Shown here in pieces: positions 5,521 to 35,927 of a stretch of DNA of 47,214 nucleotides. A model generated the notes under the pieces. The model was not told the DNA's origin, searched no databases, and saw only the letters and a program-made list of their open reading frames with translations. A program made the position numbers and the translations under genes. Source of the DNA: Fragilaria crotonensis (Eukaryota > Bacillariophyta > Fragilariophyceae > Fragilariales > Fragilariaceae); contig JAKSYS010000503.1 in the NCBI GenBank assembly GCA_022925895.1, positions 1 to 47,214 on the forward strand, given 5' to 3'. Each line of letters opens with the position of its first letter. Position 1 is the stretch's first letter.

Positions 5521-5588
5521 CTACGCCGGGGTGAGAAACGGGGTGAGAAACGCGGTGCAGCCAACATAAAATGCATGCAACGACTAAC

Positions 5589-10296: not shown

Positions 10297-10946
10297 TCGA
10301 GTCTCACGAACTTCCCGACCTTGACTTACGATGTGCCCGACAGAGTAAGGTTGGATATTGGGCCACGTGAGCTCACGATCTCTACTTAAATTAATGGGAT
10401 GGCAACCTCCATTTTAGCTTCTTCGAATAATACCGAAAGCAGTGCAATATGGGGCAGTAGCGTCCTGATAAACTCCGGAAGTTTAAACACAGATGCCTCT
10501 GCATACAACCCGGAGCGCAGCAGTAGAGCGTAGTAGTACTGAAGTACTTGAACGAGCAATTACAGTATGTAATACAAGGTCCATTATTGTACATGTACAT
10601 GCGTTTTACAACCGATGTTGTACTTCTCTCTCCCGGATTTCGTGGGATTCCACGACTTCTGGTATCCGAGATCCAGTGCGTACCCTCCCAAAAAAGAGGG
10701 TGCGGATAACACGGTTTGTGTAGCTTTTTCGTAGAAATATACCCGAAAAATAGGAGAGTACCATCGATTCCTCCTTACAACCACACGTTTTAGATAATGT
10801 TGATATTACTTAGTTGGACTTACAACTTTACAACTGCTAAGAAAGGTACGTCTTCGCATTTGGAAGGGTATCACAAGTGGTACTACATTCTGTAATTCTG
10901 CGAGAAGAATACATAAATTTCTTGTGCACTTTCCAGCAGCACCACC
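10297..10946. other. Intergenic region upstream of Crypton remnant
   Basis: I recognise no gene. A small inverted repeat, ACCCTC and GAGGGT around an A-rich loop, lies at 10682-10701. GTAC-containing motifs are frequent between 10530 and 10640. The left end of the Crypton-like element may lie here, but Cryptons lack terminal inverted repeats and I cannot define the edge. Confidence 0.45.
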
Positions 10947-13001
10947 ATGTCAGTTGATCCTCAAACACTTAAGCGATACAAGAGCGTCCTCGCAGCGTTC
11001 ATGTCATTTCTTCATCAGCGTCTGCCAGGCGATTCATATGAAAGGGACCACGTATTCACCGAAGCAGAGTTGACAGCAGTGATCCCATTGGATGTGTGTA
11101 GGTATATGAGGTTGAAGGCGTACGGTTCAGAATTTCCATCTCCCGGACACGAATCCTATTCATAGTCGACACTCAGCAATATCCTTTGACAAGAAGGCAA
11201 TTTCTTTCTGGATGCCGAATCGAGACAAGTGGAGTGTGACAAGAACAGAAGGGAACCCAACGCAGAGTAAGGATGTGCTTGATCTTTTGAAAGCGGTGAA
11301 GAAGAAAGAAGTGCGGAAGCAGGGTGCAAAATCTCAGGTACGACGTCCGATGGTAGGAAAAGAATTTGAGAGTATGCATAAACTTTTGCTTGAAGCTGGC
11401 AATGAAAATGACAGGCGGACTACAGCTCACGCATCATCATGGAAAAGGTATGGTATAAGTGCGCTTGTCAATTTTCAATTCCACATGATTGCTCGAATCG
11501 ACGACTCCACACAGGTTGTACTAGAGCACGTTCGTGTGCATGATAAATTCTCTCATTCATTGAAGGTAAGACTCAACTGGTCAAAGAATGTGAACGATGA
11601 ACGAGATGCGCCATTCCAGCTTGTATTGGGGTCAATGAATCCTATCTATTGCGTATTGTGGTCACTTGGATTGTGGCTCGAATTGAATTTAAAAATGTAT
11701 CCACCAGCAATGGAATCTCCGTATCTCTTTTGTTTTTGCGATGACTTTCGGATTCCAGAGGGAGGGCAAAAGGCGAAGTCAATGATACAATCCTTTATGA
11801 CAAAGATGTTCAAAAGACGCGAATTTCACGAGGAAGAGGAGAATGCAAAGAAATTATTGTTGGGCTCGCACAGTATTCGTAAGTTTGCATGTACGTATGT
11901 TCGATCTTGCGGTATCCACAAAGATGAAAAAGATATTCGGGGTCGCTGGAAAGGGGTAGGTCGCGTGTCAGATGTATATGACGATACAGAGTTGCCATAT
12001 CCAGACGCAAAGGTTGGTGCTGTCCTTTGCGGTGGCGGTCCATGTATTTACAAAACAAATCCAGCAGTTGACTCGGCGATGATGGACTCGTTTGTTCTGA
12101 GCCACGTCGTGCCAAACGCGAGGAAGAGGCTCCCTGATTCGGCTTGCCTTGTGCTTGGTAAGGCGTTGATGTGGATGATCACGTCGCCATTTGCTGATGA
12201 TCACATCCCTGTGGAATTTAAGGACAAGGTGCTTTCAGATTGGGCTCACGTTTGCGGTGGCGATTCGGAGTTGGATGCCGAACAAAGTGCGATATATAAA
12301 AATCCTGTCCAAAAAACTGGCGGTTGTGGTGTCGGGAGATTTTGGAGCAGTATTCATTGATACAATTAGAGAGTTGGAGGAGGGTGGAGAAGGTGGTGGC
12401 GGAGGTAATAGAGCTTTTGGTATGCAGGGATCGCATGCAAACTTTCGAAATCAGTTAACGGGAATGCAATCATGTCTATTGGCGTTGAGGCAGGAGAATA
12501 TGGAAATGAAGAGTTCTATTTCTGGGTTGAAAATAAGTATGGAACGAAACTTTGGGATTGTGAATGGAAATGTTCGACGACTCGCGATGCGACCAACGAG
12601 AAATTTGACTGTTCTGGCGACGGCGGCGACAAATCAACAAAACCAAGGGGGAGTGGCAGCCCAGCATGCAGGGGGCGACCGTGCAATGATGCTTGCGACC
12701 CTCATGCCAACGCCCAGGAGTCTTCATGACCTCTGGCAGGAGTATGAGTTTGGGGTCGGTGGGAGGAAAGCTGCAAAGCTTTTTTTCCTATACTGAGCGC
12801 GGTCGCTCCAAGCACAAATATCACCGCAGGAAGGTTGTGTGGGACTTGATAAGTGGCCTTGTCAGACAAGGTCACACAGCTGATTCGGGCATAGATAAAA
12901 TCTATGCAGTGTATGGAGGGCAAACAAGTGTGAGCAACATCATCAACGGATTGAAACGAGATAAAAAAAATGGCACGATGAATCCAAACCTCGTATTATA
13001 A
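10947..13001 (+). pseudogene. Crypton-like tyrosine recombinase with GCR1_C-like tail, frame-broken
   Basis: Four consecutive ORF pieces (10947-11165, from about 11141 to 12360, from about 12290 to 12796, from about 12770 to 13001) read as one protein if shifted near 11141, 12320 and the T-run at 12778-12784. Piece two has tyrosine recombinase residues: Arg at about 95, the HSIR box at 220-223, Trp 246 in RGRWKG and the candidate nucleophile Tyr 256 in DVYDD, followed by LPYPDAKVGAVLCGGGP. The C terminus (SLHDLWQEYEFGVGGRKAAK, then HKYHRRKVVWDLI, NIINGLKRDKKNG) resembles the GCR1_C DNA-binding domain found fused to recombinases in Cryptons. A Gly-rich linker and a likely coiled coil separate the two. 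Cryptons move by recombinase-mediated excision and integration of circles. Because other genes here also have single-base breaks, I cannot say whether this copy is truly dead. The ATG at 10947 sits in an ACCACCATG context. Confidence 0.75.
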
Positions 13002-14068
13002 AACGAAGCTTCATACTTCATACTTCATACTACTACTGTGCCGTTGTGCACTGTAAAATTTTTGTACTTCGCGAGTTACTTCACGCGGTGAAAGCATGGA
13101 GGGTTTTCCTACAGCGATCGTAGTATCCTCCTACAGAGTTGTACCATGAGTTTTAAGAATTTTAGGCACGACCACAGTACGAGTACCTGGTAGTACAAGT
13201 GCTGCCATTGAAAGTAGGAAAGTATGCATATCATATGCCATATGCGTAGAGTTGTATGTCATACAGTACCTGGTATTACATTATTGAGTGGTTTAGTACT
13301 CGTCATTCGTCATACTCTCTTATATTTTTTAGTCTATGAGAGAGTTGTGGACTGTAGACCCAGGCATGGAACTGATTGAACTGCATGTACGACTGTTGTT
13401 CGGCGGAATTCTTGATTCAAGTTCGGATTTCGGATGCTGGTATCTGGTATCAATGTATCAATACATGCTGTGATCTGTGATACTCTGGAGTCTGGAGTAC
13501 ATTGTACTTGTACCATGTAGCACGTACGTATAGTTGTATTATACGGAGTACTGTCTTTAGTAAAGTACTCCAATCTACATAGAGAAACATGTGCATATCC
13601 TACTATATTATAAATTAATTGTGTGCGTGTGTGCGTGTGTGCGTGCGTGCGTCTGTTACGGAGTATGACCACTCTGAGGTACTGGATCAAATGTTGCACT
13701 GTTACGTGGATTACATGTACTACAGGTCTACAGTACATAAACGGACGGTAATTTATGTTGAAACGACAGTGTGTTACGCTACTGAACTACAATACTGTAC
13801 GAATTCAAAGTTACTGGATGGAATACTCATTGAATTTGCTGTGAACAGGTTGCTTGACAAATGCTACTGTAAAATATACCGTGCGATGAACTGCAATACT
13901 GGGGCATGATAAGTACCAGGTACCTGGTACTGTACTTCATGAAGTTTCCTACGTTGGTACCATGGTACTGCATACTGTAGGGGAAAAAAGTAGTGGTACG
14001 GAGTACGACCAGGTTGGGGGTACTGTACGTCCAGTTTCCTGTAGTAGACACTCCGATCAAATGTGAGG
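13002..14068. other. Repeat-rich intergenic region, GTAC-dense
   Basis: No gene is recognised. The region opens with three tandem CTTCATA-like units (13011-13031), contains a GT/GC microsatellite (13618-13655), and is dense in GTAC: I count eight copies in the 100 bases 13911-14010. Two blocks, 13618-13737 and 13990-14077, reappear inverted near 34.1-34.3 kb. A minus-strand ORF (13334-13738) lies across the repeat; its copy at 34 kb is open on the other strand, which points to repeat DNA rather than a gene. Confidence 0.6.
13618..13655. repeat. GTGTGCGT microsatellite
   Basis: A short purine/pyrimidine-alternating run made of GTGTGCGT and GTGC units. A shorter version of the same run is in the inverted copy at about 34268-34290. 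Confidence 0.85.
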
Positions 14069-14077
14069 CACCCACTA
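14069..14077. repeat. Target-site duplication, left (CACCCACTA)
   Basis: The 9-bp word CACCCACTA directly precedes the left terminal inverted repeat and recurs at 15262-15270 directly after the right one. Confidence 0.85.
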
Positions 14078-15261
14078 GAAAGCTTAACGTCTAGATATTT
14101 CGATCTATTTAGAATCTATATCGAAGATAAAAGTATATACTTTTGTATACATTAATCTTCATTTGTCCTTCAGCCCCATGGACGTCATCAGCTTTGTTCG
14201 TTCACCAATCAGAGTGCTAGTTGAAAGGGGTGTTCGCAAGTGCGCGCTGGCACGGTTGCCAAATTTTGGTTAACACATCCGATGATCACCTGTGATGAAT
14301 TGATGAATACGGAATACGCAGTTGAAACATGTGTTGTGCCTCCAGTGGGTTGTGCTAGCTAGTACTCCGCGCACGAGGTATTGTACGATACCCATGTACA
14401 ACACGAAAGTTCCATCCAAAATCGAGCATCCCCATTTATCTCGGAGACAAACCTACAACGGTTTAATACTGAAATTCTACGAGTTGCTGTTAGCGTTGGT
14501 ACTACTGGTACATAGGACATTCCCGAGTATAAAATTCGAACAACGATAGTTCGGAATTCATCGTAGATTCTACGTGCATCCCAGTACTCTGAGTGCTCCA
14601 GTGGCACAGTCGAGATTTTTATACTGCACACTACAATACTGAAGTGCTCCGCGTACTCGATTCCACTACTACAGTGGCGGTATCACGATACCGGTACGCC
14701 GGTGAGCTTTCTTTGTCATGAGGCCCTTCTCAAACAGTGCTTTTTGAAAGTCAATCAAAAACAGACATGTTCACTCCTGTTGTCTCTACTACTGACTACA
14801 AATTGGTACATGTGCTAAAGACACAGATTGGAGAGTAAAGAAGGAGAACTACAGAGATATTACAAGCAGATTGTCTGCAGTGGAGGGTCCATTGTCAAGT
14901 TTGAATTGTGGAATTTTGTGATGATATTGTGCATTTGGCGTTCCAAATGCATTCAGGTACATCGTTTACCGTTTCTACTTACCTGCGTAGGAGTATACCA
15001 GACCTTCCGTTGATTTCAACTTTCGGATTTGGGCGCGGCTAAAACGAACAAACGATTCAAAAGCACCAACGTAGAAGTCAAAGTACCCCAAGTATGACAT
15101 ATTAGGACTAATCGATGCACATGGAATGAGATTCTAAGTGAACCGAGGGGTTCGTATCGATGACGTTCACATGACGTTAGAATCATCTGTTCGGGAAGGG
15201 TTACTTTTATCTTCGATATAGATTCTAAATAGATCGAAATATCTAGACGTTAAGCTTTATC
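14078..15261. mobile_element. Non-autonomous DNA transposon, Mutator-like
   Basis: This 1184-bp element has terminal inverted repeats of 58-60 bp (14078-14135 and 15202-15261), identical except for a small indel at the outer tip. Both begin with G and continue AAGCTTAACGTCTAGATATT when read inwards. It is flanked by a perfect 9-bp direct repeat. Long terminal repeats with 9-bp target duplications are the hallmark of the Mutator superfamily (established knowledge); the superfamily call is inference because no transposase is encoded. The inside has only short unconvincing ORFs. The related sequence at 34107-34115 shows one copy of the target word with no insertion, an independent view of the empty site. 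The near-identical repeats suggest fairly recent insertion. It sits about 230 bp upstream of the ATG at 15489. Confidence 0.85.
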
Positions 15262-15270
15262 CACCCACTA
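15262..15270. repeat. Target-site duplication, right (CACCCACTA)
   Basis: Second copy of the 9-bp word flanking the Mutator-like element; see the copy at 14069. Confidence 0.85.
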
Positions 15271-15488
15271 GTGCATACTAAAATCTATGCACCAACGCTC
15301 CGACGATGCCGCCGATGCGCCAACATCACATTTTGGAGGACTCACACTCGCACGGCGCGCCGTTTCGGGCCGTTGAACTGTTGGAGGACAGCTGGATCCA
15401 ATCTCGATGGTATCTTTCTAATTCATCTGTCACAATACCACCGGACCACAAGGTATTGACCAAGGCGTCCATCCCGCAACGCTTCACC

Positions 15489-18493: not shown

Positions 18494-18501
18494 TATTGCA
18501 T
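18494..18501. repeat. Target-site duplication, left (TATTGCAT)
   Basis: The 8-bp word TATTGCAT lies directly before the transposon terminus at 18502 and again directly after its other terminus at 24343. Confidence 0.88.
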
Positions 18502-18691
18502 CAGAGACGGGAAATTCTGAAAACATCAAACCCATGGGTACAAGTACTATGTACCCACGTCCTACCCAAACCCACCCAAACCCAGTTGGCAGTACTGGAC
18601 TACATGGTTCTACTACTACCGGTAGCAAACATCTACTGTCATTTTTTGCTATGATTTGCCGGCCCACCCAGACCCCCACCCACAAGGGTAC

Positions 18692-18793
18692 ATATATTTT
18701 AGAGGGTGGACAACGTGTACCAGAGTTCATGTTCGATGTCTCGGTAAAATCGTCCTTCCGTCATCGGTGCCATCACGCACACCGAAAATCGCT
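18692..18793. repeat. Subterminal inverted repeat, left arm
   Basis: About 100 bp, starting near ACAAGGGTACATATATTTTA, match the reverse complement of 24119-24245 with an internal gap of roughly 15-20 bases in this arm. It probably contains transposase-binding sites, by analogy with P and hAT elements (inference). Confidence 0.85.
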
Positions 18794-19527
18794 CACAACG
18801 AGAACATCAGTAACAACAACACCACAATTGAACCATGACAACAGCAACATCAACCCCTACACCAGTCCTTGACTCTCCTATGGTGTCCTTCATCAAATGG
18901 AAATGATATGGGCTGAAAACCCCATTAAGCTCCAGCTTGCTCGTCTGGGTGGTGGCGTCATCCTCAGCATTGTTGACAGAGTGTGTGTTGGCGTGCAACA
19001 TACGTCTCGCACGCTTACACGCTGGTCGTGAGAGATTTGACCGGATTGAACGGATCAACTTCAATTTGGAGATGGATATTCAATTGTCACACTCCAAATG
19101 GCCGTGCTCGAACCTGATGACATTAACAAGTCGCCTTGCAAAAATGAAGATGTGAAGAAAGGTTAACAAGCTCTCCCAGCAGGAGTATCAAGATTCTTGT
19201 CGGGGGATCATCGCCGCCAGCGAAGCCTCGAAACAATTTCAAACTGAACCAGGAGTACTACACAGTACTACATGGCCATGAAGTACCTCGACAAGATGCA
19301 AAGATGCCTATGTGATTCGTTGCAGGGACCAAGGGCTTGTCGGGACGAGATTGTGGAGTTGCGCGAGGAACGGAGTCAAAGGCATTGACATAAGGATGAG
19401 CTTCAAGGAGAAAGGCGTTATTTGTTGGGATCAACTACAATACCCTCGCTTTTGTGGAGATTCTGTAGACTTTCCTCATTCTTCATCTTGGCGGCTTTCT
19501 TCTTGGTGCTTTTGATGATGCCTCAAT

Positions 19528-22500
19528 TCAACACGTAATGGTAACTTGGTCGTGTTCTTTGCCTGTCTTCCCGTATAAAGTTCTTTGAATCTCCGGGAAA
19601 TCATGCCTGCCCATGCATGGATTGTTTTTTTTTGTCAGGGCCGTGTACAGTGACTGCAGGGTGTTAGTGCTTGTGTTTTCTCTCCTCTCATTACTGTAAC
19701 TTGTTTCGCAACACGACCAAAAGATGCGTTTCAATTTTTCAGAATGGAGCACATCAGAAACAAGGTCCTCAATAGCCCGGTTGCCTTTTTGAAGCACTGT
19801 TTCAATGGTCAACTTCTTCACCATGGTCATCAGGCTTCTTCCGAAACCTATAAAGTTTGTTGCCACCAGTGTGAGACCGCCTTTATTCATGACTTCATTG
19901 GCAATGGGGTAGCAATTCTTCATATAGAGTTCATCGTTGATCACCTCATGGTGAAATACCGACATTTTTTCCAGTAAATCAAGGCCATCCTTGTTGTCGC
20001 ATTGTTCGTTTTCCAGTTTTCGCTTTAGCGAGAAAATGGACCAGCCAAAGAAACGCTGAACTTGACTCATAATCACGTCTTGGGAATTGTCCACGGTGTT
20101 GGTGGCATTTGATTGACGGGATGATGCAATAGCTTCTCTTTCAATTTTTTTTTCTGACAACCTTGCAGACATTGCGTCGTACACCCATTCCAACAAGATA
20201 TCGGACAAGCATTGGATCAAAAGACATACCGGTGCATCCTTCAGTCTCAGACAGGTCGGCAGCTTATCGATCACAATTTTCCATGCTACATGATTCCTCT
20301 CCTTCATCATTTTATACAGTCGGTGGTGGAAGAGAGAACATGCTTCCGATTGAAAGCAGATGCTTCGTATAAGTTCTGAAAAAGTATTAACAGGATGCAT
20401 GAACAAGCTGAGTTGAAGTTCATTTCGTCGTCTCCTTCCAGGCTGTACAGCGATTTGTACCAACTCTCGTTGACAGTAAAGATTGAAGCCTTTGCCGTGG
20501 CAACAAAGTCCTTTCGTTCCTAGCAGCAGACCTAGAAAGCCTTTCATGCCTAGCCTCTGTTTTGCGTTGCCCACTAAGATGTCGTGAAGACGCCGGTATC
20601 CAGGCGAGAGACATGAAGAATCGATTCCTTCAAATATGTTCTCCACTTGATAAGAAGTTGTTGCCGCGTTGGCATTGATCTCATTTCTAGCCTTCAGAAA
20701 GTCCGAGAAAATTTGGTTTCTCTCTGCATCTCTCCTGCTCAGCAAATCGAAAGTGTTTCGTACATCCACATCAGGAATGTCCTCGCTGGAATAAGCAGGC
20801 TTGTCAAATGTTTTCACCACAGCAATAGCTTCGGTGGAGCTTTGAACTGCAATCGAGGTACAAAAGCCCTGTGGGGTGTCTCTCTTTTGACTCCTTGCCA
20901 AAGAAAAGACCGACTCGATTGAGCTGGAATTTGAGTGACTAACAAGCACAAATTCAGGTGGGTTGCTCGACTTGAATAGGGCAAGGCGACAGTATTCAAA
21001 AAAACCTCTCATACTCAACCTCAAATTTTTGTAGGTGATTGACGAAATAAAGTGCTTCAGTCGATTCTTTCTCGTTTCACTGGGATCGATACTATCATAC
21101 CACCGATCATAGAAGTTACCCACAAATGTTTTCATCGTTGTTTCATAAGCATCAATATTATCTCGTGTGATCATGACTTTGCTATTCAAGAAAAAATCAT
21201 TGAAGATCGCACCCACCACCGACGTGTACTCCAATGTGTTCAAACATGATCGAATGTGATAAGCAGTTTGTGGAGTCAGCTTGCTCCGGAATAATGGAAT
21301 TGCATTCTCGTATACTTCTTGAGCATTCCTTAGGTCAAGGTCCTTGAGTTGCCTATCGCACATGAGGGCTTCGGCAAGAAAAAGACACTGTTCCAATAGC
21401 GTCTCCCTGGCAGAAGGAGCTTTTGCATAGGACACACACATGCTGGAGTATGAGTCTACCTCAATGGATGCCTTGCGGAGTTTGCTGATTTGTGGTTGTC
21501 TCAATACATCTCGGTTGTAGCACTCCTCAATTTCAGTCCAACCAAAATGGGCTTCGTGCATTTTAAGTAAGCGCGAACCGTTAGGATGGCTCCGTAAAAG
21601 CTGGTTCCGACTTGCCTTAAGGTTGTGCGAGGAGCAGTGGTACACTGCAACTGACTGGGAAGGGTTTATATGGTTAGCGAATGTCACATTCTCGATAAGC
21701 GGGTAGCCTGTCACGGCAATTTTGGTATCAGCGGACGTAAGCAGATCCACTAATTTCACATTTTGCCCAGCGGCGTCATTCAGCAAACCTAGAATGTGGA
21801 CCCCGATGAGTTCGCAGTGCCCTGCAACACGCAAGAACTGTCTGAGCAATTCATCGCCCGTAAGGGACCCGTTGTTATAGAAGAACTCGCAGTTGTATGA
21901 GACATTTTTTGTGGTTCGTAGTCTCCAAAGGTTAACATACATTGCTGGCTTGTATGTCAACCACAGGTCCATGGCATCTTGTTGTCTGCGATTGGTGTTT
22001 ATAACTTGGTTGGTCTCATGCGTTTCTGGTTGTGTATCAATATCCTTATCGATCGCATTCGTCGCCGCCAAGAATAGATTTGCTACTTCAATTTCTGGCA
22101 AAAGCTGATTAAATTCGCCGACCGATGCTGCCAGTCCAACCATATGATTGTTCGAACAATTCCAATACACATCATTTACTAGCTTCAATTCATCATGCAT
22201 GAGATGTGCATCGATGCAAACGTTTCTTTCTGAGACATGATGGTCAGAAAACCACCCATATAATTTGGCACATTTACCTTCGTTTACGCGATTCCCTTTC
22301 AGGATTCCCTTTAGCAGCGATTGTGATGGCATGATATCAACAGATAACATGCGATGAATGGCATATCCTTTCTTGCATCGCATCCAGAGAGACAATGCTG
22401 CACGAAGAGTCAATGGCGTGAAGCGAACTTGCTTCTCCTGCCCATTCCCGATCTTAGTGAAATTCTTGATTGCACTAACACAGTGTTCCGCAAACTCAGT

Positions 22501-23295
22501 AACCTCACACTCAGATTTCTTACTTCCACACTTTGCCAATACAATGTTCTTAATTAGGTTGACCATATCATCTGAGTTCTCAGCGAAGAATTGCGATGCC
22601 GCACTGACAAGTTCATTTGCACTTTCATCCGAGTTGTTGAGGGTTTTGGCGTGATTTTTGCTTAGAACGTCTTCTAGACGAGCATTGCGACGCTTCTCAG
22701 CATGCACAAGCTTCCGCACATTCTTATACCTCTCAACTTTGACTGGAGTGGCAAGGGAGGAGTACGGTGCGCGGCTAGAGGGATGAGCTAGCTGGGTTTT
22801 CTTATCGATTTGAATCTGACGTCGAGCCATTTTGCGCTTGTCGTTCCTGCACTTGGAACAAATGCGCTCGTCTTTTTTCAAGGCTTGCCCTATTTCTGCC
22901 CAACTGCCGCACTTGCAAAAAATGAGCCAGTAGCTAGCTCGTTCTTCAGACTCAGTCGCCTTATTTTCGTCTCCATGAAAAGCGAGAGCAATAGGGTCTT
23001 GTAGTCCATGAACATGGACCAGGCTCTTCCACGCGTTTCCAACTCCTTTACTCTGCAAGAATTCTTCGCAGGCATGACCACGTACCAGATGATTCTGGAA
23101 CCTCTGTCTCAATTTTCTCACAATAGTGTCAGGCGTTGTTACTATTTCAGATTGAGGAGTGGGAGGTAAAAGAGTCCGCGGTGCTAGTGGCGAGGTCGGG
23201 CTAGTAGCGCACAGCACCAGTAAAGGTTGGTCATCAACCGTTTCTCTTCGAATGATGGGGAGCATGAAACCTTGGGACATGATTGGGCTTCTCAA
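19528..23295 (-). CDS. P-element-like transposase, 1255 residues
   Basis: This is the presumed transposase of the surrounding element. A Cys cluster at 127, 129, 146 and 149 (FCKCGS, ICSKCR) may bind zinc, in the place where THAP-type finger domains sit. RFTPLTLRAALSLWMRCKKG (291-310) and IMPSQSLLKGIL match the region before the catalytic core in P/THAP9 transposases. Candidate RNase H-fold residues are an Asp in CIDAHLMHDELKL (362 or 368), Asp507 in LLNDAAGQN, the HNLKASRNQ motif at 557-565 (compare the conserved H..K..RN in P elements), and Glu794 in SSIESVFSLARS. The DNA cut-and-paste role follows from the family; residue assignments are inference. Long regions between D507 and E794 fit the insertion domain of P and hAT enzymes. 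The ORF is intact. The C-terminal 440 residues are unrecognised. A hAT assignment is the main alternative. Confidence 0.7.
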   Translation of the reverse strand: MRSPIMSQGFMLPIIRRETVDDQPLLVLCATSPTSPLAPRTLLPPTPQSEIVTTPDTIVRKLRQRFQNHLVRGHACEEFLQSKGVGNAWKSLVHVHGLQDPIALAFHGDENKATESEERASYWLIFCKCGSWAEIGQALKKDERICSKCRNDKRKMARRQIQIDKKTQLAHPSSRAPYSSLATPVKVERYKNVRKLVHAEKRRNARLEDVLSKNHAKTLNNSDESANELVSAASQFFAENSDDMVNLIKNIVLAKCGSKKSECEVTEFAEHCVSAIKNFTKIGNGQEKQVRFTPLTLRAALSLWMRCKKGYAIHRMLSVDIMPSQSLLKGILKGNRVNEGKCAKLYGWFSDHHVSERNVCIDAHLMHDELKLVNDVYWNCSNNHMVGLAASVGEFNQLLPEIEVANLFLAATNAIDKDIDTQPETHETNQVINTNRRQQDAMDLWLTYKPAMYVNLWRLRTTKNVSYNCEFFYNNGSLTGDELLRQFLRVAGHCELIGVHILGLLNDAAGQNVKLVDLLTSADTKIAVTGYPLIENVTFANHINPSQSVAVYHCSSHNLKASRNQLLRSHPNGSRLLKMHEAHFGWTEIEECYNRDVLRQPQISKLRKASIEVDSYSSMCVSYAKAPSARETLLEQCLFLAEALMCDRQLKDLDLRNAQEVYENAIPLFRSKLTPQTAYHIRSCLNTLEYTSVVGAIFNDFFLNSKVMITRDNIDAYETTMKTFVGNFYDRWYDSIDPSETRKNRLKHFISSITYKNLRLSMRGFFEYCRLALFKSSNPPEFVLVSHSNSSSIESVFSLARSQKRDTPQGFCTSIAVQSSTEAIAVVKTFDKPAYSSEDIPDVDVRNTFDLLSRRDAERNQIFSDFLKARNEINANAATTSYQVENIFEGIDSSCLSPGYRRLHDILVGNAKQRLGMKGFLGLLLGTKGLCCHGKGFNLYCQRELVQIAVQPGRRRRNELQLSLFMHPVNTFSELIRSICFQSEACSLFHHRLYKMMKERNHVAWKIVIDKLPTCLRLKDAPVCLLIQCLSDILLEWVYDAMSARLSEKKIEREAIASSRQSNATNTVDNSQDVIMSQVQRFFGWSIFSLKRKLENEQCDNKDGLDLLEKMSVFHHEVINDELYMKNCYPIANEVMNKGGLTLVATNFIGFGRSLMTMVKKLTIETVLQKGNRAIEDLVSDVLHSEKLKRIFWSCCETSYSNERRENTSTNTLQSLYTALTKKNNPCMGRHDFPEIQRTLYGKTGKEHDQVTITC

Positions 23296-23406
23296 TTATG
23301 TGCTGGCTCACGATAGCACTTTCTGATGTGGGGACCGCATCTCCAAGATGTGAGCGGATGTTGTGTCGCTGTGACCGCTCTGATGATAGGGTTTGGATAC
23401 AAGCAA

Positions 23407-23874
23407 TTATATCATTCCTTGATGCGACAGGTGCTTGAACTTGGAGGTGAAGGTCAACATCTCATCTCTTGAAAGTGTCAGGCCAACAAGAACATCACGA
23501 GCAAGGTTTCCATATGTGTTGCGACTTTCCCCAAGTGCCTCGTTGGTTATTCCATACAACAATCGCTGTTGGTCTTCAATATTCTTAATGCATTTAGCAT
23601 TTAAGAGCGATGTTGTTGCAAATCGCTTCTGGACCAAGACAATCGGCCAATGGAATTTGTGAATATAGTATCGCTTTCCAGTCTGTACGAGATCAAGGGG
23701 AATCTTTAAATGAAACTCAACACTCTTCCGAAAGGCAAAGTGCTTCCTCTGATTGTGAGTTGAAGGATTGTTGCAAGCATAAACTTGCTTGAACTCCAGC
23801 AACTCATGGCAGTTGAGTTCTTCCAATGTTGCCTGGATGTCCCCTTTTGGCAAAACTGCAGTCCACAGTCGCAT
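23407..23874 (-). CDS. Second transposon ORF, unknown, 155 residues
   Basis: This ORF lies just upstream of the transposase on the same strand, inside the element boundaries. I recognise no domain. It is basic and includes CHELLEFKQVYACNN, FHLKIPLDLVQTGKRYYIHK and LLYGITNEALGESRN. It may be a separate accessory protein or a 5' exon of the transposase; the 111-bp gap to 23295 could hold an intron, but I did not find a convincing donor/acceptor pair. The ORF 23804-24067 overlaps it in another frame and is not supported. Confidence 0.5.
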   Translation of the reverse strand: MRLWTAVLPKGDIQATLEELNCHELLEFKQVYACNNPSTHNQRKHFAFRKSVEFHLKIPLDLVQTGKRYYIHKFHWPIVLVQKRFATTSLLNAKCIKNIEDQQRLLYGITNEALGESRNTYGNLARDVLVGLTLSRDEMLTFTSKFKHLSHQGMI

Positions 23875-24118
23875 TGACGGTATGTGAGTTTTCGGCGTTT
23901 ATCTCTTGGAGCACTATGACTTTCAGGGTAGGGGTGATAGCGTGCTGCTTCTTCTTGTTTTCCGAGCGTTCCATTTTGCCAGACATGTAACCACTACGCA
24001 CAATGTGTCTTGATGATGAATGCTGCTGGCCAAGAGATAAGAATGATAAGGGTGGCACTGCTGCCACTATGATGCTAATATGTGATGCCCAGTGTATTTT
24101 ATCCTTGTTGCGTGTTCA

Positions 24119-24245
24119 GAGCAGTTTTCGGTGTGCGTGATGGCACCGATGACGGAAGGACGATTTTACCGAGACATCGAACATGGACTCTACGCAAGTC
24201 TCTACGGACGTTGTCCACCCTCTAAAATATATGTACCCTTGCCCA
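24119..24245. repeat. Subterminal inverted repeat, right arm
   Basis: Reverse-complement partner of 18692-18793. The outer part continues into G-rich GGGTTTGGGTGGGC words at 24285-24328, the complement of CCCACCCAAACCC at the left end. Confidence 0.85.
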
Positions 24246-24343
24246 CCCATGAAATCCTGAGCTCACCCAAAACCCACCCTTAACCCAATGGGTTTGGGTG
24301 GGCCATGGGTTTGGGTGGGCTGGGTTTGCAATTCCCGTCTCTG

Positions 24344-24351
24344 TATTGCAT
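24344..24351. repeat. Target-site duplication, right (TATTGCAT)
   Basis: Second copy of the 8-bp word flanking the 5.8-kb transposon. Confidence 0.88.
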
Positions 24352-24960: not shown

Positions 24961-26586
24961 TTAATGCATTCTGCTTGCAATATGACTTTGGAGCACTTCT
25001 TCAGGAATCCACTTTCCGTGGAATCCAAACGGGACACGATGCGGCATATCCAACCTCAACACAAGTGCTTCTTCATCATACAATACGAACGAGCTCTTCC
25101 CGTTTGCATTGTTGTAAAGGAAGTTTCCAACGTAGAAATCGCGAGAATCGGTTGTATTTGGCTTGGCGAGCAATACGGGCTCGCCGCCAAACTCATCCTT
25201 GGCATAATTAACTATCTTGATGGCCTTCTTCTCAAGCATATCCCAAATTATGAACCCTCGGAACACTCCATCTTGGGTCTCGGCATCCAAGATACCAGCG
25301 ACTCCGTATCGTGCGAATCTTCCGTAGAAATCCCTGCGGACGTTGCAAAACTCTTGATTATGCTCCGTATCGATACGTTCGACGCTGACTGATCCTGTTG
25401 TTGGGTTCATTCTCAGTTCGCTCATGAAGTAAAAGTTCGTACCTGAATCCAGCTCCAGCTCCATATGATCGCCTAGCGGAGCCCACATCACGACTGTTCC
25501 ATCACTTTCCTCCCATGCATTGACAGGGTGGATCATTACGTGCGGTGATCCCACATCAAAGGTCGTGATTTCACCCGTGAGGCGACTCACAAGAAGGATC
25601 TCCAAGTTGGAATGCTCCTTCCAAGTAAAAACATTCTTGCCTTCAAATATCTTGGTGATATCGAAGTGGACAGATGAGTCGTACAGTACCATCCAATTCT
25701 CCGTAATCATCATGTCGTGAGCAAAGCTCGTGTGGTTCTTCTGGATGCCCCGATAGTTCCGTACGGTCCCATTCGCCAACAGTTCGCCAACCTTAAACGC
25801 ACCGTGTTCCTTCATCAGCTGAGGATCGGCAGCATACGAATGAAAAAGCAATGAGTTCGTTGCAAAGTCCACCTTGGGGTGTGCCGACACGGGGTAGTCG
25901 AGGACACCCCCAAACGTTGAGAACCCGAGACTCTCAATGCTCCCATCGTCATTCAGGTTGGCTTCGAATGGAAGATTCCCTTCGTTCAGCAAGTAGAAAC
26001 GATTGTTGAACATGACAGTATCGGTATTGGCAGGGCCACTTGTCAGTGCGTTCATCCCATGAGCCTTCGTCTTGACTGGTTCGACAAGAACAGCCTTGAG
26101 GAGCCCAGTGATTCCGATCAATTCTCCGAAACGTAAGAAGTAGTCTTTGGAGTAATTCTTTTCAGTGACATAGCGAGGCGTGTGGATGAATTGATTGGAG
26201 TACGTGGCCTTGCCACCTTTGAACCGAAGGTTGTGGAGCATGCCATGACCATCGAACCAGTGATATCGCTTGGTCCAGCCTGGCAAAGGATTGGGTCCTG
26301 TGCGCACGAACATGCCTTCCAAGTCGACAGGGATGGCGCCTTCGGCCACATCAACGGGGACACCAATGTACTCCTCGGCGACTGGTGCAAAATTGCCATT
26401 CAGGTAGGGGTTTGTCGCCAAATGCTCCTTCGGACGCTGCAGCAGAGTTAAGAAATCATCGACGGAATCGACAACCGTCAGCAGCGAGATTCTGGACACT
26501 GCAATGGACAGCAAGCCACAGAAAGCTGCAATGCCAACGTAGTTGCTTCTCTTTTCGGTTCTCGTAGCTTCTTTGCCTTCGGTCAT
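24961..26586 (-). CDS. Carotenoid cleavage oxygenase, copy 1
   Basis: An RPE65/carotenoid cleavage dioxygenase family protein, which cleaves carotenoid or apocarotenoid double bases using Fe(II) held by four histidines. Candidate ligands are all present (numbering from the upstream ATG at 26634): H252 in SAHPKVD, H306 in SFAHDMMIT, H369 in IHPVNAWEE and H539 in FGFHGKW. Also typical are RTGPNPLPGW at 111-120 and FDGHGMLHNLRF at 127-138. A hydrophobic segment near residues 32-55 may be a membrane anchor or the core of a targeting signal. I prefer the ATG at 26586 because it aligns with the start of copy 2. The frame is intact and no intron is needed. Copy 2 lies 2966 bp away on the same strand. 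The substrate (xanthophylls such as fucoxanthin, or an apocarotenoid) cannot be told from sequence. Confidence 0.9.
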   Translation of the reverse strand: MTEGKEATRTEKRSNYVGIAAFCGLLSIAVSRISLLTVVDSVDDFLTLLQRPKEHLATNPYLNGNFAPVAEEYIGVPVDVAEGAIPVDLEGMFVRTGPNPLPGWTKRYHWFDGHGMLHNLRFKGGKATYSNQFIHTPRYVTEKNYSKDYFLRFGELIGITGLLKAVLVEPVKTKAHGMNALTSGPANTDTVMFNNRFYLLNEGNLPFEANLNDDGSIESLGFSTFGGVLDYPVSAHPKVDFATNSLLFHSYAADPQLMKEHGAFKVGELLANGTVRNYRGIQKNHTSFAHDMMITENWMVLYDSSVHFDITKIFEGKNVFTWKEHSNLEILLVSRLTGEITTFDVGSPHVMIHPVNAWEESDGTVVMWAPLGDHMELELDSGTNFYFMSELRMNPTTGSVSVERIDTEHNQEFCNVRRDFYGRFARYGVAGILDAETQDGVFRGFIIWDMLEKKAIKIVNYAKDEFGGEPVLLAKPNTTDSRDFYVGNFLYNNANGKSSFVLYDEEALVLRLDMPHRVPFGFHGKWIPEEVLQSHIASRMH

Positions 26587-26634
26587 ATTGCAAGATTGAT
26601 TGCAAACCTTCACTTGTTGATTTGAGTGATTCAA

Positions 26635-27926: not shown

Positions 27927-29534
27927 CTAATGCGTCCTGCTTGCAATATGACTTTGGAGCACTTCTTCAGGAATCCACTTTCCGTGGAATCCAAACGGGA
28001 CACGATGCGGCATATCCAACCTCAACACAAGTGCTTCTTCATCATACAACACGAACGAGCTCTTCCCGTTCGCATTGTTGTACAGGAAGTTTCCAACGTA
28101 GAAATCGCGAGAATCCGTCGTATTAGGCTTGGCGAGCAATACGGGCTCGCCGCCAAACTCATCCTTGGCATAATTAACTATCTTGATGGCCTTCTTCTCA
28201 AGCATATCCCAAATTATGAACCCTCGGAACAAACCATCCTGGGACTTGGAATCCAAGATACCTGCAAGGCCGTACCGTGCGAAACGTCCGTAGAAATCCC
28301 TGCGGACGTTGCAAAACTCTTGATTATGCTCCGTGTCGATACGTTCGATGCTGACTGATCCGGTGACAGGGTTCATTCTCAGTTCGCTCATGTAGAAAAA
28401 GTTGGTGCCCGCCTCTAACTCCAGATCTAAATGATCACCCACAGGTGCCCACAAAACGACTGTTCCATCACTTTCCTCCCACGCATTGACCATATGAACC
28501 ATGCCCCTGGGCGATCCGACGTTGAATGTCTTCACTTCACCAGTGAGACGACTCACAAGAAGGATCTCCAAGTTGGAATGCTCCTTCCATGTAAACACGC
28601 TCTTGCCTTCAAACATCTGGCTGATATCGAAGTGGACGGACGAGTCGTACAGTACCATCCAATTCTCCGTAATCATCATGTCGTGAGCAAAGCTCGTGTG
28701 GTTCTTCTGGATGCCCCGATAGTTCCGTACGGTCCCATTCGCCAACAATTCGCCGACCTTAAACGCACCGTGTTCCTTCATCAGCTGAGGATCGGCAGTA
28801 TACGAATGAAAAAGCAATGAGTTCGTTGCGAAGTCCACCTTGGGGTGTGCCGACACGGGGTAATCGAGGACACCCCCAAACGTTGAGAATCCAAGACTCT
28901 CAATGCTCCCATCGTCATTCAGGTTGGCTTCGAATGGAAGATTCCCTTCGTTCAGCAAGTAGAAACGATTGTTGAACATGACAGTATCGGTATTGGCAGT
29001 GCCACTTGTCAGCACGTTCATCCCATGAGCCTTCGTCTTGACTGGTTCGACAAGAACAGTTTTGAGGAGCCCAGTGATGCCGATCAATTCTCCGAAACGT
29101 AAGAAGTAGTCCTTCGAGTAATTCTTTTCAGTGACATAGCGAGGCGTGTGGATGAATTGATTGGAGTACGTGGCCTTGCCACCTTTGAACCGAAGGTTGT
29201 GAAGCATGCCGTGACCGTCGAACCAGTGATAGCGCTTGGTCCAACCTGGCAAAGGATTGGGTCCTGTGCGCACGAACATGCCTTCCAAGTCGACAGGGAT
29301 GGCGCCTTCGACCACATCAACGGGGACACCAATGAACTCCTCCGTGACTGGAGCAAAGTTTCCATGCAAAAAGTTGTTTGTCGCCAAATGCTCCTTCGGA
29401 CGCTGCAGCATGGTTAAGAAATCATCGAAGGTGTTCACAACAGTTAGGAGCGAAATTCTGGACACTGCAATGGATACCAAGGCAAAGAAAGCTGCAACAC
29501 CAATGAGGGTGCTGCTGTGATTGCCGGTCGTCAT
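27927..29534 (-). CDS. Carotenoid cleavage oxygenase, copy 2
   Basis: Tandem paralogue of copy 1 with the same family role. The four His motifs are conserved (SAHPKVD, SFAHDMMIT, VHMVNAWEE, FGFHGKW). I chose the ATG at 29534 (MTTGNH), which lines up with copy 1; an upstream ATG at 29567 is possible. The first 90 residues and a patch corresponding to residues 325-425 of copy 1 differ at many positions, while the central and C-terminal stretches are nearly identical even at synonymous sites. A hydrophobic segment near the N terminus is kept (GVAAFFALVSIAVSRISLL). The similarity ends at the stop codon. Frame intact. Confidence 0.9.
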   Translation of the reverse strand: MTTGNHSSTLIGVAAFFALVSIAVSRISLLTVVNTFDDFLTMLQRPKEHLATNNFLHGNFAPVTEEFIGVPVDVVEGAIPVDLEGMFVRTGPNPLPGWTKRYHWFDGHGMLHNLRFKGGKATYSNQFIHTPRYVTEKNYSKDYFLRFGELIGITGLLKTVLVEPVKTKAHGMNVLTSGTANTDTVMFNNRFYLLNEGNLPFEANLNDDGSIESLGFSTFGGVLDYPVSAHPKVDFATNSLLFHSYTADPQLMKEHGAFKVGELLANGTVRNYRGIQKNHTSFAHDMMITENWMVLYDSSVHFDISQMFEGKSVFTWKEHSNLEILLVSRLTGEVKTFNVGSPRGMVHMVNAWEESDGTVVLWAPVGDHLDLELEAGTNFFYMSELRMNPVTGSVSIERIDTEHNQEFCNVRRDFYGRFARYGLAGILDSKSQDGLFRGFIIWDMLEKKAIKIVNYAKDEFGGEPVLLAKPNTTDSRDFYVGNFLYNNANGKSSFVLYDEEALVLRLDMPHRVPFGFHGKWIPEEVLQSHIASRTH

Positions 29535-29567
29535 TGTGAAGAGTGCTATGTACGTCGAATGAGTCAA

Positions 29568-31286: not shown

Positions 31287-32307
31287 AATCGTCGGCAAAT
31301 TCGTGGATGTTAAGTCTTTGGTCGGAGGGCGTCGGAATGATGCAGCGTGATCGGCTGAACGCACATCACATGAATCATGATTTGTCTTTAACTTCAAACT
31401 TCAACTCGCCGTCTGTCATCGCATTATTTCAGGAATTTCCTGGAAAAATGGGAACCTGATGGTACTGTACCTGGTACCGGTACGTAGATATGATACTGTC
31501 CTGATATACGACACTGATGTCGACCGATTGAAATCTGGATCATTCATCATGATGCTTGACGTGCAGAGTTTGTTGTCGCTCATCACAAATGCATTAGATC
31601 CTGGTGACTACCCAAATCCCATCCCACCTGAGGGAACTCTGGACCTCTGATTCCCCTCCCACTGTTACTGTGGAGAGAACAAATGAGGAGGCAGCCTTGG
31701 CCCCCCACTCGTAAGGCCAGTAGTAGCATCAAGAAATGCACTCACCTAGAAATAGATTTGTGATAACATTGTAGGAACGTGTATGTATGAGAAAACAAAT
31801 TAACCAAGTCTGGAATTTGTAGAGTTACCAAGCAGGGATCAGAAACCTATGGGGTATCAGATGCCAAGTCATTGGCACTCAGCAACATCATAGGAGTACG
31901 TTGTGACAAGGTTGACTCAAATGATTGTGCCATACTGTTGCTTTGCAGTTAATGCCACTGCTATTTGTATGAGAAAAAGGTATGTCCAGGGTTATCCCAA
32001 GGACACGGCAAGGAACAAGAAATGTTCAGAAATTTTCTTCAGGCAGATCTAGAGTAGAAGAAGTGCCACAAATCTTCTATGCAGAATTTGTGGCTAGCAT
32101 GGATGTTGTTTATGTTTCATTTTTGATCAGGATCCTCTTCAATAGCTTTTGCCTCTGGAGGAACTGAGAGACAGAGATAATGTATTCCCTGTCGCTAAAG
32201 TTGAGAACTGTCAGCCGAGAGGAAAGCCCATTTAGTATAGTCTCTACCGGTAGTACAATTACTTCCCGAGTTGTATTGTTTTCTAGGCATGTAGTTACTT
32301 TTACTTT
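31287..32307. other. Intergenic region before the repeat array
   Basis: No gene recognised. The ORFs at 31459-31650 and 31982-32167 have no motif I can name. Base composition from 31500 to 32170 is more AT-rich than the flanks and GTAC-poor, so it may be a decayed repeat, but I have no match to support this. Confidence 0.4.
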
Positions 32308-34093
32308 ACATAATAAGATTTTCTTTCCGGTCCGGACGAAATACTGCCGTAGCCCAGATAGGGAAAGCCCGGCCAGACAATTGTCGTCCCAGTCATTTAA
32401 CGTCTCTATTCCCGGACGAAACTATTAGTACTCACTGAAGCAATAAAGCCCGGCCAGACAATTGTTGTCCCAGTCATTTAACGTCTCTATTATCGATAAA
32501 CTCCGCCAGCCGGTCCTTTAGCGTCTCTATTGCGGGACGAAACAATTAGTACTCAGTGCCGTAGGCATACAGTGTACGTACCGATACTACTAAGCAATGA
32601 GTACCGATACAACCACACTACCAGTACAACAATACTAAACTCCGCCAGTAGCACAGATCAACGCGGCCCACGTCTCTATTGCCGGACGAAACCATATTAG
32701 CAATTAGCACTCATTGCCGCCGTAGGCATACAGTGTATGTACCGATACTACTGAAGCAATGAGTACCGGCGATACTACAGTACTGAAACAACCACACTAC
32801 CAGTACAACAATAAACTACGCCAGTACCCCAGATCAACGCGGCCTTGGGCCGCACATATCCAGATATGGAAAGCCCGGCCAGACAATTGTTGTCCCAGTC
32901 CTTTAACGTCTCTATTGCCAGACGAAACTATTAGTACTCATTGCCGTAGGCATACAGTGTATGTACCGATACCACTGAAGCAATGAGTTCCGGCGATACT
33001 ACAGGACTGAAACAACCACACTACCAGTACAACAATAAACTCCGCCAGTAGCCCAGATCAACGCGGCCTTGGGCCGCACATATCCAGTCTGGTACATAAT
33101 AAGATTTTCTTTCCGGTCCGGACGAAATACTGCCGTAGCCCAGATAGGGAAAGCCCGGCCAGACAATTGTCGTCCCAGTCATTTAACGTCTCTATTGCCG
33201 GACGAAACTATTAGTACTCACTGAAGCAATAAAGCCCGGCCAGACAATTGTCGTCCCAGTCATTTAACGTCTCTATTGCCGGACAAAACTATTAGTACTC
33301 ATTGCCGTAGCCATACAGTGTATGTACCGATACTACTGAAGCAATGAGTACCGATACTACCGGTCCGGACGAAATACTGCCGTAGCCCAGTACTCATTGC
33401 CGTAGCCATACACTGTATGTACCGATACTACTGAAGCAAAGAGTACCGATACTACTGAAACAACCACACTGTACCAGAGTACTCGAGTACATCGATAAAC
33501 TCCGCCAGCCGGTCCTTTAACGTCTCTATTGCGGGACGAAACAATTAGTACTCAGTGCCGTAGGCATACAGTGTATGTACCGATACTACTGAAGCAATGA
33601 GTACCAATACAACCACACTACCAGTACAACAATAAACTCCGCCAGTAGCACAGATCAACGCGGCCCACGTCTCTATTGCCGGACGAAGCCATACATATTA
33701 GCAATTAGCACTCATTGCCGCCGTAGGCATACAGTGTATGTACCGATACTACTGAAGCAATGAGTACCGGCGATACTACAGTACTGAAACAACCACACTA
33801 CCAGTACAACAATAAACTACGCCAGTAGCCCAGATCAACGCGGCCTGGGGCCGCACATATCCAGATATGGAAAGCCCGGCCAGACAATTGTCGTCCCAGT
33901 CCTTTAACGTCTCCATTGCCGGACGAAACTATTAGAACTCATTGCCGTAGGCATACCCAGTGTATGTACCGATACCACTGAAGCAATGAGTTCCGCGATA
34001 CTACAGGACTGAAACAACCACACTACCAGTACAACAATAACCCGCCAGTAGCCCAGATCAACGCGGCCTTGGGCCGCACATATCCAGTCTGGT
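32308..34093. repeat. Satellite-like higher-order repeat array
   Basis: Two large units, 32308-33093 and 33094-34093, both begin ACATAATAAGATTTTCTTTC and end at CATATCCAGTCTGGT. Within them, shorter modules recur in varying order: a CCCGGCCAGACAATTGT block; ACGTCTCTATTGC followed by GGACGAAAC; a hairpin module from ACTCATTGC to GCAATGAGT; AACAACCACACTACCAGTAC; and GATCAACGCGGCC, followed in several copies by TTGGGCCGC. The second unit has about 210 extra bases because modules are repeated. No coding potential is seen. It ends only about 10 bp before the inverted intergenic duplication (copy B). Confidence 0.9.
33295..33351. repeat. Hairpin-forming module, best copy
   Basis: GTACTCATTGC at 33295-33305 pairs perfectly with GCAATGAGTAC at 33341-33351 across a 35-nt loop. 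The loop holds a second inverted repeat, CATACA and TGTATG around one base. Other copies of the module in the array keep the inner 9 bp of the arms. Confidence 0.85.
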
Positions 34094-34105
34094 TCATATC
34101 TATTA

Positions 34106-34292
34106 CTAGTGGGTACCTCACATTTGATCGGAGTGTCTACTACAGGAAACTGGACGTACAGTACCCCCAACCTGGTCGTACTGGTCGTTTATGTACTGTA
34201 GACCTGTAGTACATGTAATCCACGTAACAGTACAACAGTACCCCAGAGTGGTCATACTCCGTAACAGACGCACGCACACACGCACACAATCA
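34106..34292 (-). repeat. Intergenic duplication, copy B with empty insertion site
   Basis: Reverse complement of 13618-13737 plus 13990-14077 with few differences. The target word of the Mutator-like element is present once here (34107-34115, TACCCACTA on the minus strand) and nothing is inserted. Confidence 0.85.
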
Positions 34293-34651
34293 CTTCTGGC
34301 CTGTCCGTGGAGACCGGTCATGTGTGCATTCTTTTCATACGTGTATGTAGTCATGGTGCTGGCTGCGGGATTGGGAGTTGGGAGTCAGAATTGACGCGTG
34401 GCATCAAGCAACGTACAACCTCTAGTTGTGCTTCGTACTTGGTATGTCATACATGTTCCGCATTCCTCAAGTGCTCGGACACTCGGTGTTCTCGGACAGA
34501 ATTTTTTCCCAAAATCGACACGTTGCATTTCTGTCCTTCGTCCGAACCGATTTTGTGTGCACCCCATTTTGCTATCTTCAAGTTTCACCTCCCCGTCGGG
34601 GCCGTCGGGCTTGAGCCAAGATCCGACGCAATATCTACTATAACGTCGGCC
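34293..34651. other. Upstream region of DUF1295-like gene
   Basis: No separate gene seen. The ORF that begins at 34307 runs into the gene below, but its first 115 residues look like translated leader; the ATG at 34652 starts with a signal peptide. Confidence 0.45.
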
Positions 34652-35927
34652 ATGAAGCTGCTTCTCCTTGCGTCCGGTCTTGTCTTGATTTCAGGCCGCC
34701 TGCAAAGGTGCACCTCATCCTCAAAGAGATCATGTCACAATTGTTCTTCGCTCCGAGTTCGTGGAGGAACTCTGGACGACCTTTTGTCTCCCGCGGCCGA
34801 CACTCCGTCTGACACCACTTTGTTCGTTGAGGGTGTCAACGGGGATGTTTCATCGTCATCACCTCTACAGCAGCGCTCCCCACGTTTCCTGGGTTTCACA
34901 GTATCGGAGCTTAGGTCTTCGGCAGCAAGTCGAAGTGCGCAAGTTGGAATCCAGCTGAAGAAGCAATTGGATGTGATCCGCAAACCCACGCAAGTTTGTC
35001 ACTGCCTAAGGTGCCCGACGAATGGAAGGACGTTCCTCAGAAGCTATTCAACACGTCGCTCCCGCAGCATTAGCTGCATTTCAGTTATTGTACCACAAAG
35101 GAGACATTTCTTTTCTTGGGGTGTACGCACTGGCACTATTGGGGTCGAGTTCGGGCTTTCATCTCTTCCTCTACTTCATCACTGTTGGATACGCACTCGG
35201 AGTGGCACTGCCTGTAGCCGTAGCGCTGTGCCTACATACTTATCAACGATCGGTGAAACCTCTTACGACGGTTCACTCAGGCCTCACAATTTTGTGGGGT
35301 ATTCGATCAGCAGCGTTCTTCTTGTACCGAGAGTACGTCAACTGGCCCCAACTGCACCTCAAAGTTGTGGAGGTGAACAAGATGGCCGGACTTAATTCGA
35401 AAGTTTTCTGTTGGCTGGTTTATTCACTCTGCTATGCTACAATGGCCTCGCCTTGCTTATATCGACTGCAGTCTGGGAAAAGCTGGGACTTGCTTGGCAA
35501 AATTGGATTGGGAATTCAAGCGACAGGCTTGCTGCTGGAGTCAGTCGCTGATTATCAGAAAAGTACCTTCAAATCGTTGACTGGCAATCGCAATCAATGG
35601 TGCAACGTGGGTTTGTTTCTACAGTACCTTCCCAAACTACCTTGGCGAACTGCTATTTTGGTACGGCAACTTTTTGGCTGGCATGGAATCGTTCCAGAAA
35701 CCCCACGAGTGGACCTTGTCCATCATGGGAGTGCTCTTCATCACTATTGTAGTTCGGGGTGCTATGCACTCGCTCGGAGCAAGCAAATGCGCCGATACGG
35801 CAGCACAAATCCTGAGTTTGTGAATTTTGTGCGAACACATACAATTGTGGGTCCAGTGCCGTCGTTGCCAAAACGTTCGAAAGGACAGACAGTGGCGGCA
35901 GCGGAGCCATCGCAACCTGCATTTTGA
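34652..35927 (+). CDS. DUF1295/steroid 5-alpha-reductase-like membrane protein, frame-broken
   Basis: The N terminus MKLLLLASGLVLISG is a signal peptide. The C-terminal half resembles the DUF1295 family of polytopic membrane reductase-like proteins: LTILWGIRSAAFFLYREYVN, GLLLESVADYQKSTFKS with NRNQW, then YSTFPNYLGELLFWYGNF in another frame, and RRYGSTNPEF near the end. The reading frame changes at least twice between 34980 and 35040, once near 35620 and once near 35770. All pieces are collinear with the family, so the gene is recognisable but broken. This is either assembly indels, as in the neighbouring BiP gene, or a decaying pseudogene; four or more breaks in 1.3 kb make the second more plausible here than elsewhere. 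Function in lipid or sterol reduction is only suggested by the family. Confidence 0.65.

Follow-up and report, generated by a model that had tools for sequence, protein, structure and literature searches.

A P-like DNA transposon nested in a miniature inverted-repeat transposable element of the diatom Fragilaria crotonensis

The DNA window analyzed here is a 47,214-nucleotide stretch of the Fragilaria crotonensis genome (GenBank assembly GCA_022925895.1, contig JAKSYS010000503.1, positions 1–47,214 of the forward strand). Its 5842-bp segment at positions 18502–24343 is composed of two mobile elements, a short non-coding miniature inverted-repeat transposable element (MITE) and a longer coding P-like transposon that invaded the MITE later. 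The outer MITE is split into a left part (18502–18682, plus strand) and a right part (24242–24343, plus strand). Its 12-bp terminal inverted repeats (TIRs), CAGAGACGGGAA at 18502–18513 and the reverse complement at 24332–24343, are perfect and are flanked on both sides by a perfect 8-bp target site duplication (TSD), TATTGCAT (18494–18501 and 24344–24351, unstranded). The left part of the MITE ends in the octamer CCCACCCA (18675–18682), and the right part starts with a second copy of it (24242–24249); these two unstranded copies constitute the TSD of the inner element. The inner P-like element (18683–24241, 5559 bp, gene on the minus strand) is bounded by perfect 34-bp TIRs that start with CAAGGGTAC and lie at 18683–18716 (plus strand, 3′ side of the gene, short-spacer end) and at 24208–24241 (minus strand, 5′ side of the gene, long-spacer end). 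Each TIR is followed inward by one arm of a 78-nt subterminal inverted repeat with 94% identity (18722–18799, plus strand, and 24114–24191, minus strand). A first-pass annotation of the window, made by a model from the letters alone, had located the 12-bp ends and the TATTGCAT duplication correctly but had assigned them to the coding element; they belong to the MITE, and the coding element occupies 18683–24241.

The nested arrangement is evident from both pairs of ends, both 8-bp duplications and a matching contig, C482, that carries the MITE without the insert. When the 5842-bp segment was used as a query against the 62.1-Mb genome of the window (881 contigs), query bases 1–181 and 5741–5842 were found adjacent to each other, with an overlap of ∼8 bases, in many short repeats, the characteristic pattern of a repeat interrupted by an insertion. 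In the order of events that we propose, the non-coding MITE with CAGAGACGGGAA ends would have inserted at TATTGCAT in a first step, and the 5.56-kb P-like DNA transposon would later have inserted into the MITE at CCCACCCA. Whichever classification of the inner element holds, the locus teaches that ends and target duplications should be checked on other copies; a transposon inside a MITE mimics one complete element.

On either side of the site, the C482 contig and the window are ∼99% identical, and the identity immediately next to the site is 99.8% over 484 bp and 99.6% over 499 bp. The search for empty sites that the first-pass annotation had recommended is answered by this contig, in which the MITE is present and no trace of the inner element is found in the 49.5 kb examined. 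The C482 copy of the MITE (G000:C482:107109-107388) has the same short form and occupies the same target site, but it is inverted relative to the flanks in comparison with the window copy, which may result from an inversion, from renewed insertion into that site or from an error in the assembly. The single-copy region 4000–8000 of the window occurs exactly twice in the genome, on C452 and C482, as fits two homologues. The C482 match stops at window position 26987, and the sole near-identical partner of window region 31906–36000 is located on C790; C482 is thus read as a homologue that was rearranged or incorrectly joined past this position. A duplicated segment is a less likely identity for C482, and the P-like insertion is probably heterozygous. 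The insertion is recent, and its host MITE is unrelated to the P-like element.

The outer element has the properties of a MITE, being short, non-coding and present in many copies with a 12-bp TIR and an 8-bp TSD. With the insert removed, it measures 275 bp at the window site; 12 of 16 other copies are 321 bp long, and the remaining four are 281, 313, 319 and 322 bp. Among these 17 copies, 13 are flanked by exact 8-bp duplications and one by a duplication with one mismatch; the three failures are the C482 copy, because of a difference in the last base, and two copies in tandem on C266. A genome search for the 12-bp termini, as the first-pass annotation had suggested, returned 228 occurrences of CAGAGACGGGAA, compared with 9 for the 12-mer written in reverse order, so the ends are not a product of chance. 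The copies on C515 and C405 have common flanks and probably represent one site on two homologues. On C108, the MITE ends enclose 3891 bp (G000:C108:196177-200067; L059:78-3968) with the TSD CTGCTGGT. One end of this C108 element matches the MITE over ∼227 bp (94%) and the other over 92 bp (79%). The interior codes for other products, such as the protein GFKYDTRRKSFYVDGHEREDVV; no above-threshold Pfam match was obtained for the proteins of the C108 element. Judged by the shared ends and subterminal sequence, the MITE is more likely to be served by the unrelated 3.9-kb C108 element than by the P-like element. Fragments with hAT domains are located within ∼0.8 kb of MITE copies (G000:C405:123766-124571 and G000:C266:53240-54852), and given these neighbors on C405 and C266, the MITE may be linked to hAT, or the proximity may be due to chance.

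Copies of the inner family with both ends are found at seven loci, in the window and on C526, C310, C210, C449, C749 and C764. One end is present on C231, and the C455 copy, which has the same flank as C526, runs off the contig end. Each of the seven loci has its own exact 8-bp duplication (those of C449, C749 and C764 were read by eye from printed flanks). The first-pass annotation had named the absence of 8-bp repeats from other copies with the same ends as a refutation; the repeats are kept at all seven inner-family loci, as they are, in exact form, at 13 of 17 MITE copies. The C526 copy (3451 bp) is internally deleted and differs from the window copy by one mismatch and 16 indels in 3456 aligned bases. 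Many of these indels fall in short base runs, and 13 of the 16 are letters missing from the window. Together with the absence of the insert from C482, this near-identity supports the earlier view of a young copy on evidence other than that first offered. C526 and C455 differ by two mismatches and 23 gap letters in 3425 bases and probably represent a single site that is present twice in the assembly, on separate contigs.

The copies on C310 (5766 bp) and C210 (4825 bp) are ∼99% identical to each other and form a second subfamily, which is 73–77% identical to the window copy where the sequences align. The C449, C749 and C764 copies are ∼2.2 kb long and have the ends alone in common with the window element; C449 and C749 are 98.6% identical. 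In these two ∼2.2-kb elements (L060 and L061), a 141-residue open reading frame (ORF) lies between the P-like ends. The coding gene is common to both subfamilies, and the differences are mainly at silent sites. The ratio of non-synonymous to synonymous divergence (dN/dS) between the subfamilies is 0.16 over 872 codons, with a dS of 1.07 that is near saturation, and this ratio suggests that the gene remained functional for a long time in both lineages.

The long ORF of the window copy (19528–23295, minus strand) comprises 1255 codons from a TTG codon or 1250 codons from the ATG at 23280 and would encode most of a P-like transposase. The first-pass annotation had reported this ORF correctly but had described it as intact and the element as complete, which does not apply to this copy as assembled. 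The N-terminal coding part (approximately 23264–23959, minus strand) is split over three frames and cut off from the long ORF. The corresponding ORF of C310 has 1396 codons and, counted from its GTG codon, is ∼250 residues longer at the N-terminus than that of the window; in C526, the N-terminal region lies in a single open frame of 394 codons. Within the long ORF, the stretch 20328–20519 (minus strand) is read out of frame relative to C310; in another frame, 65 residues of this stretch match C310 at 71% (E 1e-29). The C-terminus is frame-shifted relative to the C210 copy, with a coding part in another frame (19461–19631, minus strand) that extends past the ORF stop. The last part of the C310 gene also lies in another frame than its 1396-codon ORF, and no complete read-through of the gene was found among the copies examined. 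Read as assembled, the window sequence cannot yield the full protein. The frame breaks are probably assembly errors because related copies differ almost only by short indels.

The window protein contains the candidate catalytic residues of an RNase H-type transposase in the order known from P elements. The P signature is given in PMC8230255 as D230, D303, a [C/D](2)H motif at D339, and E531. The best ungapped fits of these four P motifs in the window protein occur in the same order, at Asp363 (22192–22194, candidate first catalytic residue), Asp502 (21775–21777, candidate second), Cys549-x-x-His (21625–21636, candidate [C/D](2)H motif, followed by K..RN) and Glu789 in IESVFSLARS (20914–20916, candidate third), all on the minus strand. 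The Asp/Asp/Glu candidates and the H..K..RN motif had been noticed in the first reading and are confirmed here. A chain score with spacing limits reached 77 for the window protein against a shuffle maximum of 62, and 70 for C310 against 65, with none of 300 shuffles equal to either protein. Four hAT proteins of the same genome scored 39–46, values reached by 41–147 of 300 shuffles. The sole transposase model reported by Pfam at E values up to 10 is PF21787, the N-terminal RNase H domain of P/THAP9. Drosophila P transposase is the best blastp partner of the window protein among the proteins compared (E 0.12, P residues 246–365). As the first-pass annotation had expected, a canonical THAP finger was not detected: Pfam reports no THAP match in the C310 ORF, which may not hold the true N-terminus.

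Several results weigh against an assignment to the P superfamily. Taken alone, the four motifs of the window protein were matched by 968, 480, 60 and 23 of 1000 shuffles, so that the first two are no better than shuffled sequence and just the last two are notable individually; two of the four fit better elsewhere in C310 when searched separately. In the chain test, the alignment was already known when motif windows and spacing limits were set, and a decoy made from reversed P obtained a score of 65 in one of the hAT proteins, compared with the 70 of C310. P itself has Asp rather than Cys in the (2)H motif, and the two Asp residues are 139 residues apart in the window protein versus 73 in Drosophila P. 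The PF21787 matches lie below the cut-off (E 0.15 and 12.8 bits for the window protein, E 0.18 and 12.5 bits for C310, versus 24.6 bits), no family matched above a curated Pfam cut-off for either protein, and a PDB search with the protein and a three-row profile returned nothing at E values up to 10. Plain local alignment to P was equaled by 11 of 500 shuffles for the window protein and 25 of 500 for C310. In blastp, C310 pairs best with a hAT protein, over 38 residues that lie outside the catalytic core (E 0.28), and P ranks second (E 2.0). The comparison with Drosophila P transposase and the structure prediction that the first-pass annotation had recommended gave no support; hhalign returned a probability of 0.6% (E 0.094), and a single-sequence prediction of residues 270–905 alone, directed at the RNase H fold with its GTP-binding insertion domain, had a mean predicted local distance difference test score of 35.8 and was unusable.

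Other searches bear little on the assignment. PF21787 had no match in the window's own genome, a result that is uninformative because the control genomes had no match either. A search for relatives in viral contigs found none by protein, and none of 59 pattern matches with alignment was confirmed. The remaining weak Pfam matches were dismissed as noise: FLYWCH for the window protein (E 0.38), FTA4 (E 0.0035), PdxJ, PS-DH and DUF2175 for the C210 tail piece, and RRM_8 for an N-terminal piece (E 0.091).

The ends of the inner element provide a second line of comparison with P. The spacer is defined here as the distance from the inner edge of the terminal repeat to the conserved subterminal block, with boundaries set in this analysis. 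The long-spacer end measures 25 bp at all eight loci at which it was read, and the short-spacer end measures 14 bp at four of seven (window, C526, C310 and C449) and 20, 22 and 27 bp on C749, C764 and C210, respectively. These loci fall into approximately five lineages and do not represent eight independent cases. The 25-bp spacer is constant in length and variable in sequence, and this combination suggests that its length is under constraint. In Drosophila P, the distances between the terminal repeat and the transposase-binding site are 9 and 21 bp, which the review that gives them likens to the 12/23 signals used in V(D)J recombination (PMC7776569). The two ends of the window element differ in spacing by 11 bp and those of P by 12 bp. 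C210, with 27 and 25 bp, lacks the short/long difference. Against P, the likeness of the terminal repeat to the 31-bp repeat of P is not beyond chance (1168 of 5000 shuffles as good).

Taken together, the motifs and ends make P-type membership plausible, not proven, and that the element works like a P element is, with moderate confidence, the best reading of the sequence. The odds of membership are lowered slightly by the C310 blastp result and the missed cut-off. The P-type label of the first-pass annotation is retained as the best available, on account of the colinear signature and the sub-threshold PF21787 match, while formal membership is not established. A divergent P member could also fall below the PF21787 cut-off, and the claim is accordingly worded as “P-like” rather than “a P element”. 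The gene product would be an RNase H-type (D, D, E) transposase of the P kind. It would bind the terminal repeats and the subterminal block, pair one short-spacer end with one long-spacer end, excise the element and insert it into new DNA at cuts staggered by 8 bp. The whole explanation, a MITE invaded later by a P-like D, D, E DNA transposon, is moderately probable in our judgment.

Among the alternatives, a superfamily of its own, with an RNase H-fold transposase and 8-bp duplications but neither P nor hAT, fares best and still appears unlikely. The [C/D](2)H architecture is common to several superfamilies, which under this alternative would explain the resemblance to P. The alternative agrees with the lack of an above-threshold family or a PDB match, with a profile comparison with P that yields nearly nothing, with Cys in place of Asp in the (2)H motif, and with a protein of at least 1396 residues that has Cys clusters and no THAP match. 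However, the order and spacing of D, D, C-x-x-H..K..RN and E lean to P, as do the unequal end spacing and a sub-threshold match specifically to the P/THAP9 domain. A divergent hAT element is considerably less probable. It would account for the 8-bp duplications, the C-x-x-H after the second Asp and the Glu motif SSSIESVFSLA, which resembles the C-terminal motif of this genome's hAT proteins (e.g., PASSAESERVFSASS); hAT domains are common in this genome, and the hAT protein is the best, albeit weak, blastp partner of C310. This assignment is disfavored because that match lies outside the catalytic core and the hAT dimerization domain (PF05699), with 39 genome matches at E values up to 0.1, matches no inner-family copy and was absent from the Pfam searches of the window and C310 proteins; moreover, the K..RN after the His is P-like. 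Membership of the Kyakuja-Dileera-Zisupton (KDZ) group was rejected since Pfam, which holds a KDZ transposase model, reported no KDZ match at E values up to 10 for the window protein or C310. The single 5842-bp element with CAGAGACGGGAA ends of the first-pass annotation is refuted despite its perfect ends and TSD, as the same ends without the interior form a ∼321-bp repeat with 8-bp TSDs, and the interior has its own ends and TSD, carries other flanks at six other loci and is missing from C482.

If the P-like reading is pursued further, the family may tentatively be regarded as a deep THAP-less P branch, or a sister superfamily, in a unicellular alga. Such a branch would possess transposases of ∼1500 residues, a short/long spacer rule that resembles those of P elements and V(D)J signals (14/25 bp, a difference of one helical turn), and one insertion that differs between homologous contigs; this combined picture is somewhat doubtful. 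P elements have not been reported from a diatom in the literature searched, a result that holds for those searches only. If the P assignment is true, P-type transposition extends to a lineage without a report in that literature and dispenses with the THAP finger, the hallmark of the known members. Should the spacer asymmetry prove functional, the pairing of a short-spacer with a long-spacer end would be deeply rooted in P-type transposition.

The window and C482 also differ outside the nested elements. Window region 10599–13177 (∼2.6 kb) is absent from C482 and contains a 382-residue ORF without a Pfam match, whose C-terminal part we take to recall a tyrosine recombinase of the Crypton type. 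A second stretch without a C482 counterpart, ∼1.7 kb, is found at 13605–15272. Two similar carotenoid-oxygenase-like (RPE65) genes form a tandem pair at 24961–26634 and 27927–29567 (the Pfam test covered the first gene only), and a single matching copy was found in the C482 stretch examined.

Compared with known systems, the outer element resembles MITEs in its short length, its copy number, its lack of a long ORF, its 12-bp TIR and its 8-bp TSD; it differs in that its possible autonomous partner, the 3891-bp C108 element, encodes proteins without an above-threshold Pfam match. The inner-element protein has Cys clusters, as do KDZ transposases. According to PMC12477816, KDZ transposases can exceed 1300 residues, another likeness, whereas the KDZ elements described there are generally longer than 10 kb, in contrast to the 5.6 kb found here. 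With hAT elements, the inner element shares the 8-bp TSD, the C-x-x-H that follows the second Asp and similar residues around the Glu, but it lacks the hAT dimerization domain that is detectable elsewhere in the same genome. Relative to P, it is longer (5.6 versus 2.9 kb), encodes a larger protein (at least 1396 versus 751 residues) without a detectable THAP finger, has its two Asp 139 instead of 73 residues apart, replaces Asp339 of P with Cys, carries the long-spacer end on the 5′ rather than the 3′ side of the gene and has a similarity below family thresholds. Shared with P/THAP9 are the 8-bp TSD, inverted ends of 31–34 bp plus a subterminal repeat, internally deleted copies, the colinear D, D, [C/D](2)H, E signature and unequal end spacing, 14/25 bp here and 9/21 bp in P as given in PMC7776569.

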